This document shows positions 831 to 37,085 of a DNA stretch of 50,295 bases, in pieces. The notes beneath the pieces are model-generated. The model saw only the letters and a list, made by a program, of their open reading frames with translations, made no database searches and was not told the origin of the DNA. Origin of the DNA: Methanosarcinales archaeon (GTDB lineage Archaea > Halobacteriota > Methanosarcinia > Methanosarcinales > Methanosarcinaceae); NCBI GenBank assembly GCA_031260345.1, contig JAIRKA010000098.1, positions 1-50,295 on the forward strand, given 5' to 3'. Positions within the stretch are counted from its first letter, which is position 1; every line of letters starts with the position of its first letter. Made by a program: the position numbers and the translations under genes.

Positions 831-1751
831 CTATCCTTTAAAATCTTCAATAATATAACATTGAGTTTTTAAGTGAATTTTATTTAACAAAAGTTGATAA
901 TCTTGAATTTTTTCTTTACTTTCATCTGTAAGATCCGTTTTTTGTTCAAATAATTTCAAAACTGTGGAGCATAAGAGAGCTAATACGTTTACAAGGTAAC
1001 CAAACGGATAATCTAAATCTAACGTTGAAAATTCAGGGTATGACTCTATTTCTTCTCCAAATATGTATCGAGGAGAGGCATGATTATAAATATTTGCTTC
1101 ATCAACTGGTGCATAAATTGTGTATAATGATGTTTTTTTAGCAATTGAATTGAAATCAATTTTTGTTTTTTTTCCAAATGCTTCGCGCGCCCAATCAAAT
1201 TCGCTTTTTATATTAGATGCGTTCTTCGCTTCTAAAAGATCACTGTATCTATTTCCTTTTTCATCTATGTCTCCTAGTTTTTCATGCAATCTGCGTGCAA
1301 GTTTATAGGCAGAGAAAGGAAATTGTTCAAGATATTTAACTGCCGAATTTGGATATTTTAAAATGAACTCGGAATATACGGCTAATTCATATAATGTTCT
1401 CCATCTGGCCAAAGCTCCCTGAGCCGAACCGTATTGGATTAATATGCAAGCTTCTTCATATACTAAAGTGCCAGTATTCAAAAATTCGGACAGAACAAAA
1501 TAGATTTCATTGTTGTCATCAGGATCACCATATAATGAATGGCATAGCCAATAAATTTCATTTGATACTCTCAGTAGCCCTGCTGAGTAAACCATACTAT
1601 TATTATATTTTTCAATTCTTTCATGTTTGTCTTTAAGTCTTAGTAATTGATTCACTCCAAAAGCCTGATTGCAGTACTCAATCATCATTTCATCTTTTTC
1701 AAGATATCTTTTAAATAATTCAAATTCATCTTTATCGGTACTTTCAGTCAT
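831..1751 (-). CDS. DUF5677 family protein, TAG-terminated
   Basis: A 306-residue protein of the DUF5677 family, recognised from the helix with RWRTLYELAVYSEF (about residues 122-135) and from a later N-H-A-S/YxxFG region. The function of the family is not known. The frame is open further upstream from a TTG at 1853, but those 34 codons look non-coding and I prefer the ATG at 1751; neither start has a clear ribosome binding site. The gene is AT-rich compared with its neighbours. It stops at TAG (831-833), and the frame then runs 16 more codons, mostly Lys/Leu, to a TAA at 780-782. A second, more diverged DUF5677 gene with in-frame TAGs lies at 35748-36689. Confidence 0.75.
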   Translation of the reverse strand: MTESTDKDEFELFKRYLEKDEMMIEYCNQAFGVNQLLRLKDKHERIEKYNNSMVYSAGLLRVSNEIYWLCHSLYGDPDDNNEIYFVLSEFLNTGTLVYEEACILIQYGSAQGALARWRTLYELAVYSEFILKYPNSAVKYLEQFPFSAYKLARRLHEKLGDIDEKGNRYSDLLEAKNASNIKSEFDWAREAFGKKTKIDFNSIAKKTSLYTIYAPVDEANIYNHASPRYIFGEEIESYPEFSTLDLDYPFGYLVNVLALLCSTVLKLFEQKTDLTDESKEKIQDYQLLLNKIHLKTQCYIIEDFKG

Positions 1752-1899
1752 GACATTTATTAGAGAAATATAAGTGATATAAATTGTTAGGACCATGTTA
1801 AGAATAGAATTATCTTTTATAATCTTTATTTTTTGATACCTACCTTCAATCAAGAAACTAAATTAAGAAAGGCGAAAAAAACGAAATCGAAATGATACT

Positions 1900-21435: not shown

Positions 21436-23871
21436 TTACTTTTCATTTTCTGTTTCTTCAAATCTTCTGTAGCAGAAAACTGCAATTGCAACCATAAAGA
21501 AGAGGATGACGGCCGTCATTCCTTTCTCGGGCTCAGGATCGGGTTTTTGTTCCTCTTCATAACCCTCATCCGGTCTTTCAACGTCGGCTGTGTTATTATT
21601 TCTGCTGCCGCCGCCACCGCCGCTGGGCGTTGTTTCATTCAGTTTCCATTGAGCAAACAAAGTAATATCAGAAGTCATGACGCGAACATTTCCTGGATTA
21701 TATGATTCTGCAGGAGTCACTCCCGGTCCGGTTTCCCATCTTACGAAAGTATGGTTTGTTTTCGTCATATTACCCGGGCCGAGAATTGTCGCGGATGTGC
21801 CCTCAAGATAATTTGTCGGGTCAACAGGCGGAGCGCCTGCGGTATGCCCGTTGCCGTTGTAAGTGATGCGGTAAGTTTCATTCAGCTTCCATTGAGCAAA
21901 TAAAGTGATATCAGAAGTCATGACGCGAACATTTCCGGGATTATATGATTCTGCAGGAACCACTCCCGGTCCGGTTTCCCATCTGACGAAAGTATAGCCT
22001 GTTTTTGTCATATCGCCCGGGCTGAGAATTGTCGCATCTGCACCCTCAGGATAATTTGTCGGGTCAACAGGCGGAGTACCTGCCGTATGTCCGTTGCCGT
22101 CGTAAGTAATGCGGTACGCGCCGGATGCGAGCGGGTTTTTGTCATAGTTGACGTCCCAATTATTCAGAAGGTGAATGCCTGTCACAACACCGGCGCTGTT
22201 AATTGTGCCGCCGAATGTATTTGTGCCGGACCATCTGACATTATTGTCAACATTCGGAAGAACCGGAACGTCCGGCGGATCATCAATGCCCGTGTAGTTG
22301 TAAACAGTCATCGTTCCGGCCATGTTGTTTCTGATGACAGAAGTGTCCGAGATGATGAGTCCCCGATACGTATTGCTGCCCCACCATGAGGAGGAGCAAG
22401 AGCAAAGTGGGGCCGCACTGTTCTGAATTCCCAAGAGAACGGGTACAACAGGAATGTGATCGCACCAAAACACGCCGCCGCCATTTGCAGCGCGATTGCC
22501 GCTGATTTCGCCGTTTGACATATTGAACGCGCCTTGGCTGAACACACCGCCGCCATTGTTTTTTGCAGTATTATTTAAAATATTACCGCCTTCCATAGTG
22601 AAAACGGAGTATGGAGAGAATGACGTATAATGATTGCATACACCGCCTCCGTCGGTCCCGGCTTCGTTATCGCTGATTGTGCCGCCTCTCATGGTGAAGA
22701 AATAATCGGGAGGGGGCCATATGAAAAGCGGGAAGTTTACATTGTATACGCCGCCACCGTAAACTCCGGCTTTGTTCTTGTTGATCGTGCCGCCTTCCAT
22801 GGTGAAAGCGCCGCTGTTGTACACGCCGCCGCCGTCTCCGATAATCCAATCATAGACCCACTCAGCTGTATTATTGTAAATTATACCGCCGGTCAGGGTG
22901 AATGTGCCTGTGTTCGTCACACCGCCGCCGCACTAATCTACCTCGTTGCTACTGATCATACCGCTATTCATGAGGAAAGTGCCGTTGTTGTACACACCGC
23001 CGCCGGCTCCGAGTGGATTATTAAGGGTATCCCACAAAGCTGCGTTAGTATTGATTTCGCCGCCGGTCAGGGTGAATGTGCCTGCGTTCGCCACACCGCC
23101 GCCGTACCGATTTACATCGTTGTCGCTGATTTTGCCGCCTTCCATATTGAAAATGCCGATGTTGAACACGCCTCCGCCGGCTCCGCCGGGCGTTTGCCAT
23201 TGGGTTGCCCCTTCAGCTGTGTTTTTGCTGATTTCGCCGTCAACCAAAGTGAATGTACCGACGTTAAACACACCGCCGCCGGCCCCGACGGGCCAAGAAG
23301 AATGGTCTCCCGTGACTGTGTTATCGCTGATTGTACCGCCTGTCATGGTGAATGTGCCGAAGTTAAGCACGCCTCCGCCGCCGCTTGCAGGTGTGTCGCT
23401 TCCCGAATATGTATAGGAATTGCCGCTGATTTTGCCGCCCTTCATGTTGAAGGTGCCGCCATGGCTGACGTACACGCCGCCGCCGTCCTCATCCGGATTT
23501 ATGTGTGTCAGCGTCACTTTGTCATCGAGAGTAAAGGTAACGCCGCTGCTGACAGAAAAATGCCTGAAATCGCCGATGACTTGTATCGTGCCGTCGCCTG
23601 TTAAGATTATGTCTTTATTGATTACGATTGCAGTGGAAGGACTCCCTCCGTCAGCGTATGTCAGCATAATTGTCTGGCCGGTCAGGGTTATCGTGCCGCC
23701 GTCTGTGATTGCCGTTCGGAAAGAAGCTTCATCCGTAATTGCATTTACGCTTCCGGCAAATGAAAACAAAATAATGAATGCCGCAAAAACAAGAAAGAAA
23801 TTCTTAAAAAGCGTCTTAAAATGAGTATTCAAATCCGTATCGGATTTTAAAAAACGATTCAATGCAATCAT
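21436..23871 (-). CDS. Surface protein 4: beta-helix adhesin with one in-frame TAG codon
   Basis: A single reading frame of 812 codons, interrupted only by TAG at 22933-22935. The ATG at 23871 has GAGGAC upstream. The first part (312 residues) carries the signal peptide (FSFAGSVNA) and beta-helix repeats (GGGV.N.GTFTM..G.IS.N). Directly after the TAG the same repeats go on without a frame change. Two InlB repeats follow, duplicated in tandem with a 243-bp period (near 21634 and 21877), then a GGGGGSRNNNTA linker and the membrane helix. The repeat interrupted by TAG aligns with another that has Arg there. Readthrough, possibly as pyrrolysine, would give an anchored full-length protein; otherwise it is a broken gene. 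Confidence 0.75.
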
Positions 23872-34762: not shown

Positions 34763-35104
34763 TTTAAAACTCCTCTCTTTAAGAATAGTAAAACGGACTG
34801 AATTGACATCATAATATTGAAATCAAGCAGGTATTGCCTGCAGTCTCGAGTTAAGCCTTAAACGCGTTTTTCGAATATATACCTATTCAAAAAACAAACT
34901 TGAGTTTTAAACAATTTTTTTTGAGTTTTTAATGGCTTGTTGCTGTTATTTTTTAACGTAAAAAAGAAAAATTGATTTAAAAACAACAAAATTTGAATAG
35001 AATTCAAAGCAAAAAACAGAGGAATAAACGAGAAGGAGGAGGGCGATTTCTCGAAAATAAAAAAAACGAGCGGAGGGGTTTTGAAAGTTAAAGGAAAAAT
35101 GGAT
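34763..35104. other. AT-rich thiC leader region
   Basis: It holds the thiC ribosome binding site and promoter region and, from 35105, borders copy 2 of the long element. An 89-codon minus-strand frame here (34858-35127) is Phe/Leu-rich low-complexity translation and not credible. Confidence 0.4.
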
Positions 35105-35564
35105 GGGGTCGCGCGTGTGGGTGGCAACTGTCAAGCAACAGCGCAAAGAGGGAGGTAGTCAGCAGCAAATGGAATTGGTAAGGTAACAGGTGGTCACGTT
35201 CGCGAAGCGAACGGCTACTATAAGAAAGAGCAGAGGCGCACAGTAGCGCAGAAGGCAGCAATCTGCACAAAACAGTCGCAAGAAAGAAACTTGTTCGGAA
35301 CGGGCGAGCGTTTCTGCGTGCATCTGCCTTTTTTGGGGGAGTTCCGCAAATTTTGCTTTTGTTCTTCGCTTCGCTCAGACCAAAATCAAAATAAGCGGTC
35401 GCATGCAGGGATTCATACAATTTTAAAGCTTTATTGAAACATCGTTTTTCATTCATTTTTCTAAAAAAGTGGAACGCGTCTTTTCATTTAATCTTTTAAA
35501 ATTTTAGGGCTTTACTCGGCGTTCAAGTTTAACAAATTTTATGAAACGGATGTTTTTGTTTTAA
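35105..35564. repeat. Long structured intergenic element, copy 2
   Basis: Diverged copy of 29144-29574 with the same order of parts. The 17-nt hairpin (35197-35213) is identical to that in copy 1, together with its flanking CA. The 18-nt stem arms (35344-35361 and 35381-35398) enclose nearly the same loop (TTCTTCGCTTCGCTCAGAC). GAAACATCG recurs near 35434, GAACGC/GCGTTC near 35473 and 35519, and CGGATGTTT at 35547. One stem pair that is C-G in copy 1 (read on the minus strand) is U-A here, a compensatory change, though three other positions are unpaired. Confidence 0.7.
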
Positions 35565-35636
35565 ATGAATTATAAATAAGCAGGATCAGTAAACTCCCAT
35601 TTAATAATCTTGTGGGTGAAGTATCTCGCTTGAAAT

Positions 35637-35719
35637 AATGCACAAAAATTCGTTCGTCGCTATACGAAATGCACAAAAAGGGTTCTACTAGCAGTATATC
35701 CGCCCGTCGTACCCTTTAT
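35637..35719 (-). terminator. Two tandem hairpins with repeated TTTTTGTGCAT tails
   Basis: On the minus strand, directly past the DUF5677 stop, two units follow each other: AAAGGGT...ACCC-TTTTTGTGCAT and TTCGT...ACGAA-TTTTTGTGCAT. Each is a stem followed by a T run and the same GTGCAT. They look like tandem terminators or processing sites; other roles are open. Confidence 0.5.
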
Positions 35720-35747
35720 ATCTTGTATTCAAACATAAAGTCTAAGT

Positions 35748-36689
35748 TTATTTATTAACACCAGTTTTTAGCTTATTCCTCTGTATATCAACGTCTTTTA
35801 TTTCTTTAAGCATTTGTATCACATAGTTCAACATACAGTCTTTTATGCGTGAATCAACTATCATCTTATCTGCTATGTCATATAAGACCAATGCTGGTAT
35901 CCTTGCCGACATTGATATCTGTCTGGCAGATGCTTGATTTTTTCTAAATCGTACTTCATAAGGACTTGTGGTAGAATCCACAAATGTTTCAATCAGTCCC
36001 TTCCAGTTTCCATGAGTGCGATGGCTGAATTGTCTATATGCCTCGTATAAATCCCCCATGCCGGCATCATCAAATCTGTCTCTGATTTTTCTTTTGTGCC
36101 AATAGTTATGCTACTTTTCTTGGCTTGTCCTGAATTGTGTTACGCATGACTGTTGACTTATAAAGAATAATTCTATACGCTTCATCATTCTGTCTCTTAA
36201 TTCAATTTCACGAGGACTCTGCCTATTTGGGTCTGACTTATCCTCGATAAGTTCATCGTATCTCGTCTTTTCTGCTATAAGTGAAAATCTCTTGTATTCG
36301 TCAAATATATTATCTTGTGAGTACCTGTTTATCATAATTTTAAGTGTAACCGCAGTTTCAAGTGCTGTTCTGTCTAGAATATATAATGAATCTTCTTCGC
36401 CCTATGCATCTCCTTCATAATCCTCGACCAAGATTATTTTCATATAGCTGTACATTATTTCTTCTATTTTCCGTAAAAGTCCAAGTATTATCACTGTTTT
36501 TTCGTCTGTTCTGTTAATGTATAAGTCGTCAATTCTTAAAGTCTTGTTAAGTAGATTAAACAAAACTCCATATGCATTACATGCGTAATTCTTAAAGTCT
36601 CTTTCATTTTTGAGTGAGCTGACATTTATATTTCCTGGCGTGTAAAAACTTAGTACCTCGTTTATCTCTTCAGATATTGATTTCTCCAT
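35748..36689 (-). CDS. DUF5677-like protein with two in-frame TAG codons
   Basis: One 314-codon frame from ATG 36689 to TAA 35748, broken only by TAG at 36402-36404 and at 36111-36113. Translating through both gives a continuous protein. The helix DRTALETAVTLKIM after the first TAG corresponds to RWRTLYELAVYSEF of the DUF5677 protein at 831-1751. A later region YEAYRQFSHRTHG resembles the family's second motif. The first TAG, in DA-TAG-G, sits where the paralogue has SAQG. A strong AGGAGG ribosome binding site and a TATA box are intact. No TAA, TGA or frameshift occurs inside. Sense reading of UAG is favoured; two nonsense mutations are the alternative. Confidence 0.7.
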
Positions 36690-36694
36690 AGTAT

Positions 36695-36729
36695 GCCCTC
36701 CTAGTTATCGATTATACCATAATATAATA
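36695..36729 (-). promoter_or_regulatory. Promoter/RBS of the TAG-containing DUF5677 gene
   Basis: AGGAGGGC lies 5-6 nt before the ATG, with TATTATATT at 36721-36729 on the coding strand. The intact signals argue against a long-dead gene. Confidence 0.5.
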
Positions 36730-36940
36730 CACACAATGTTTTCGTCATATATAACATCTAAATCCAAACGCTTTTCCAAAATTCCTATTGCTTTTGTGCA
36801 ATATGCCAAAGACTCTTCTTACCAACAATTTGGTTAAAAGGGGGTCAGTAGATGGAAATTATGAATAAAATGAAGGACGCTTTTAATGACAAATTAAGAA
36901 AATAGGAGGAACAAAATAAATAAAATTCAGAAAAAATGTT

Positions 36941-36965
36941 GCGGCTCGCGCGCGGTGACAGCCGC
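36941..36965. repeat. GC-rich intergenic hairpin repeat
   Basis: GCGGCTCGCGCGCGGTGACA followed by GCCGC: six-pair arms (GCGGCT/AGCCGC) enclose a CG-rich loop. It is the cleanest example of the family. Confidence 0.65.
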
Positions 36966-37085
36966 AAAAATAGTGACACACTTTTATCGTTCCTTAAGAG
37001 AAGATTTATTAAATACGGAAAACTTTTGAAGTCTAAATTTGAAGTCTAAAACCATTAAATATTAAACGAATTAAAAAGGCAAATT

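Follow-up and report, generated by a model that had tools for sequence, protein, structure and literature searches.

A DUF5677 gene with two in-frame TAG codons in a pyrrolysine-encoding archaeon of the Methanosarcinaceae

The window analysed here, a 50,295-nucleotide stretch of DNA (contig JAIRKA010000098.1 of assembly GCA_031260345.1) from a Methanosarcinales archaeon, holds a DUF5677 gene whose frame stays intact provided that TAG counts as a sense codon. The genome to which it belongs carries the full pyrrolysine cassette, nearly lacks TAG at the ends of its genes, and has TAG codons within other conserved genes. We infer that the DUF5677 gene is translated, its protein probably being made at full length through pyrrolysine decoding of UAG; residues 96 and 193 would both be pyrrolysine, and the two codons would be of neutral origin. 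The host would be a methylamine-using archaeon of Methanosarcinaceae type, in which PylB, PylC and PylD would make pyrrolysine, PylS would charge it onto tRNA(Pyl), whose anticodon is CUA, and UAG would be read as sense.

Reading frame and family of the DUF5677 gene

The gene occupies positions 35748..36689 on the minus strand, running from an ATG at 36689 to a TAA at 35748, and comprises 313 codons with TAG read as an amino acid. Direct reading bore out what had been noted from the sequence alone, namely that this frame has two internal stops and that both are TAG; TAA, TGA and frameshifts number zero. The first TAG (36402..36404, minus strand) is codon 96 and the second (36111..36113, minus strand) is codon 193, and pyrrolysine is predicted at each. 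With TAA and TGA together making up 5.7% of the trinucleotides in this stretch, the probability that 313 codons would be free of both by chance is about 9e-9; Markov simulation, run 20000 times, never gave an open frame. The remaining five frames over the gene hold 10 to 33 stops apiece, and GC peaks at codon position 1 in all three of the pieces delimited by the TAGs. The motif AGGAGGG (36696..36702, minus strand), which from its sequence is the likely ribosome-binding site, lies 6 nt upstream of the ATG, in agreement with the intact AGGAGG site described earlier. The promoter that had likewise been called intact was not upheld, since the sigma-70-like matches are no better than shuffled sequence and the host is archaeal.

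The read-through protein matches the Pfam family DUF5677 (PF18928) over residues 95-237, with 66.2 bits against a gathering score of 27.1 and E = 5e-18. The homology runs across the second TAG, at residue 193, whereas the first TAG, at residue 96, is merely at the N-terminal edge of the match. The conserved helices that the sequence-only reading had seen flanking the first TAG are thus reduced to a match that starts at residue 95 and just touches this codon. The same reading had aligned the first TAG with a Gln of the paralogue, a pairing that our alignment did not reproduce; among distant homologues, in what is an uncertain alignment, the column is variable, with L, Y, H, F and N. AlphaFold2, run on the read-through protein as a single sequence, returned a mean pLDDT of 42, too low for a fold search, and the protein was unmatched by PADLOC, which covers known anti-phage defence families. 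The window contains a second DUF5677 gene (831..1853, minus strand), of which the standard frame ends in TAG, the next stop being 16 codons on.

Pyrrolysine machinery and the use of TAG as a terminator

The MAG that holds the window (76% complete, with 1.59 Mb spread over 119 contigs and a GC of 0.43) includes a contig, C20, that opens with pylT, followed by pylS, pylB, pylC and pylD (cluster G000:C20:34-4792). By ARAGORN, pylT is tRNA-Pyl with the anticodon CTA, and PylS (657 bits), PylB (458), PylC (416) and PylD (278) all exceed the NCBIfam cut-offs. The dimethylamine methyltransferase gene mtbB (783-798 bits) carries the expected in-frame TAG. Among the genus mates, pylT was found in 5 of 5 and a full PylS in 4 of 5, being absent from G004 (66% complete), while neither pylS nor pylT was found in G008, a genome of the same family; 30 of the 183 called genes of G008 (L184-L193), about 16%, end in TAG. 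With pylTSBCD complete in the MAG, and with it a tRNA for UAG, the pyrrolysine decoding proposed from the sequence alone is strongly supported.

The genome also has an aRF1 that looks complete, and its presence means that some UAG termination may persist. An intact aRF1 makes competition at UAG possible, a model reviewed in PMC9499178. Such competition could underlie a regulated readthrough of the DUF5677 gene, in which a 95-residue short form would end at the first UAG and the long form would be made solely when pyrrolysine is abundant, as a means of methylamine sensing. We give this little credence, since the 95-residue piece had no domain of its own in the Pfam search, the TAGs are scattered across unrelated genes, and conservation of the TAG positions is not demonstrable. 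In the stop-reading motif of aRF1, YxCxxxF, five aligned genus members have YHCN (L126-L130) and five outgroup genomes have YHCD (L121-L125), the NIKS motif being intact; this apparent change is offered as a lead only. It is highly improbable that UAG, aided by the YHCN change, is fully out of the termination code in the genus and that the DUF5677 protein needs its two pyrrolysines.

The survey of TAG covered a 270-kb sample of the 1.59 Mb genome, in which 4-5% of open frames end in TAG, although the majority belong to interrupted genes whose coding-like character continues beyond the TAG. Terminators were counted in genes of which the C-termini could be aligned to an orthologue in the sister species G005. 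By this count, TAG ends 1 of 107 genes in the MAG and, likewise, 1 of 107 in G005, and the identical pair is the pyrrolysine codon of mtbB. With mtbB set aside, TAG ends 0 of 106 ordinary genes, as against 7 of the 38 C-terminus-aligned genes of G008, which is without pylS and pylT (Fisher p 5.7e-5). The TAG share of terminators in Methanosarcina is 4-5% (PMC4153887), and by our own arithmetic the chance of 0 of 106 at this share is about 0.008. As judged from these alignments, TAG appears to be nearly lost as a terminator in the pyl-bearing genus.

TAG within other genes

The internal stops in conserved genes were 5 TAG versus 1 TAA; 2 further TGA fall within an N-terminal extension where the alignment is gapped, and do not count as true interruptions. 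In a hydantoinase gene, the TAG occurs in this genome only, the gene being stop-free in five genus mates (77-85% identity). Its position is TGG in both genus mates read at that codon, and the identity to G005 is 0.90 before the TAG and 0.75 after it. Other TAG positions in ordinary genes correspond to CAG and TCA in relatives. We take TAG to be a sense codon in ordinary genes here, because TAG termini are nearly absent and internal TAGs replace sense codons in other genes; the replacement of Trp, Ser and Gln codons alike points to neutral missense substitutions, all of them introducing the same new residue.

These results bear on two further points of the sequence-only reading, which had regarded a DUF5677 protein as an unusual case of pyrrolysine and had offered Gln as an alternative meaning of UAG. 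With TAG lying within several unrelated genes and hardly ever terminal, its presence in a DUF5677 gene is no surprise but what one would expect. A suppressor tRNA that reads UAG as Gln or another standard residue would suit the CAG to TAG change, which is among those observed, but it is extremely improbable: both tRNA-Gln genes found have ordinary anticodons (TTG and CTG), the sole CTA-anticodon tRNA among the ARAGORN-readable tRNAs of this 76%-complete bin is tRNA-Pyl (five weak or possibly intron-bearing candidates being outside this set), and the residues replaced are not Gln alone. Overall, of the earlier interpretation, pyrrolysine decoding stood, while the special status of the DUF5677 gene and the reading of UAG as Gln did not.

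Sequencing or assembly errors might be suspected in a MAG of 119 contigs, and the lone TAA in one conserved gene could be such an error. As a source of the two TAGs in the DUF5677 gene they have an almost negligible probability, two independent errors that both produce TAG in one frame being unlikely given the TAGs in several other genes. The TAA in question (L033:17047-17049, minus strand) lies in a gene whose protein, compared over 771 residues with the orthologue in G005, shows 93.5% identity; it could reflect either a mistake in the assembly or a gene that has only recently become a pseudogene.

Within the window, a gene for a repeat-rich, probable surface protein of 811 residues (21436..23871, minus strand) has one TAG, which divides it into 312 and 498 residues, and is coding-like on both sides. 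A DUF3800 gene (L022:17134-17799, minus strand) has a single in-frame TAG within its Pfam match. On contig C5 of the same MAG, a gene for a 157-residue protein with no family match (L030:2507-2977) has TAG at codon 29; this TAG is also found in G003 and G005, a stop-free homologue occurs in G002, and no homologue was found outside the genus. It is possible that this is a conserved pyrrolysine protein other than a methyltransferase.

Origin of the DUF5677 gene and comparison with known systems

Comparison of the spacer between thiC and yhbY, which is 483 bp in the sister species G005 versus 2323 bp here, revealed an insertion of ~2 kb (approximately 34997..36996), and this extra DNA holds the DUF5677 gene. 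None of the other genomes of the genus has the gene, and close homologues of the protein were found in none of the genome contigs, viral contigs, phages, plasmids, genus mates and PDB sequences searched. Selection on the gene is hard to judge, because these collections yielded no orthologue. Distant archaeal DUF5677 proteins do exist, at a divergence too high to place the TAG positions with certainty. The gene is AT-rich and foreign in composition and codon usage (scores -0.12 to -0.17), and its two TAGs in 313 codons compare with a rate of about 1.3e-4 per codon among the conserved genes (p about 8e-4 when this gene is taken singly, before allowing for gene number). This excess suggests a young or weakly constrained gene.

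The lineage-specific insertion, the foreign codon usage and the raised TAG frequency would also suit a horizontally acquired gene in decay, in which the TAGs would be among the first hits and the protein non-functional, whether UAG is read through or not. In a decaying gene, however, TAA and TGA hits would be expected too, and here these and frameshifts are lacking in all 313 codons, while the start codon and the AGGAGGG are intact. The probability that both of two random stops would be TAG is 0.06-0.09 in six simple mutation models, and an amber-mutated pseudogene is therefore only weakly countered by this figure. On balance, decay is considered unlikely. The sense use of TAG and the absence of TAA and TGA favour the view that the frame is maintained as open under the host's own code, the function of the gene itself being putative. 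In the preferred reading, pyrrolysine decoding with a neutral origin of the TAGs, UAG would have been almost abandoned as a terminator, such that a new TAG would be a missense rather than a nonsense change; the DUF5677 gene, once acquired in the lineage, would have gained two TAGs by neutral missense change, and the full-length protein would carry pyrrolysines that are probably dispensable for its function.

Several known systems offer comparison. According to the part of PMC2933860 that cites Heinemann 2009, pyrrolysine was physically observed in Thg1, the tRNA-His guanylyltransferase of Methanosarcina acetivorans, and is dispensable for its activity. On that account, the two cases share a non-methyltransferase gene with a TAG not common to its relatives, in a pyl-bearing methanogen, but the DUF5677 gene differs from Thg1 in having two TAGs, in being unconserved and in being known from sequence alone. 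In Ca. Methanomethylophilus alvus, 16 pyrrolysine proteins besides the methyltransferases have been predicted, including Cas1 and MtxX, and TAG makes up 1.6% of stops (PMC4153887). The present archaeon resembles it as a methanogen of gut type that has nearly given up TAG as a stop and has TAGs in unrelated genes with TAG-free homologues; it differs in belonging to the Methanosarcinaceae rather than the order Methanomassiliicoccales, and the gene is another one. The methyltransferases MtmB, MtbB and MttB depend on the same cassette for decoding UAG as pyrrolysine, although in them the residue is conserved and catalytic, whereas in the DUF5677 protein it is probably neutral. Finally, Kivenson and colleagues (Science, 2025) reportedly described an archaeal 'Pyl code', in which all TAG codons are said to be pyrrolysine, with confirmation by proteomics in some archaea; here, similarly, TAG is practically absent as a terminator and occurs in frame in several unrelated genes. 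The DUF5677 gene adds one more instance to a phenomenon already described in related archaea.

The more useful point, in our opinion, is the genus-wide near-loss of TAG termini rather than the DUF5677 case itself. Where TAG is called as a stop, the genomes of this genus are misannotated, and genes such as the DUF5677 gene are split into fragments. The pyl-bearing genus, set beside G008, provides a clean pair for studying the change of a stop codon into a sense codon.
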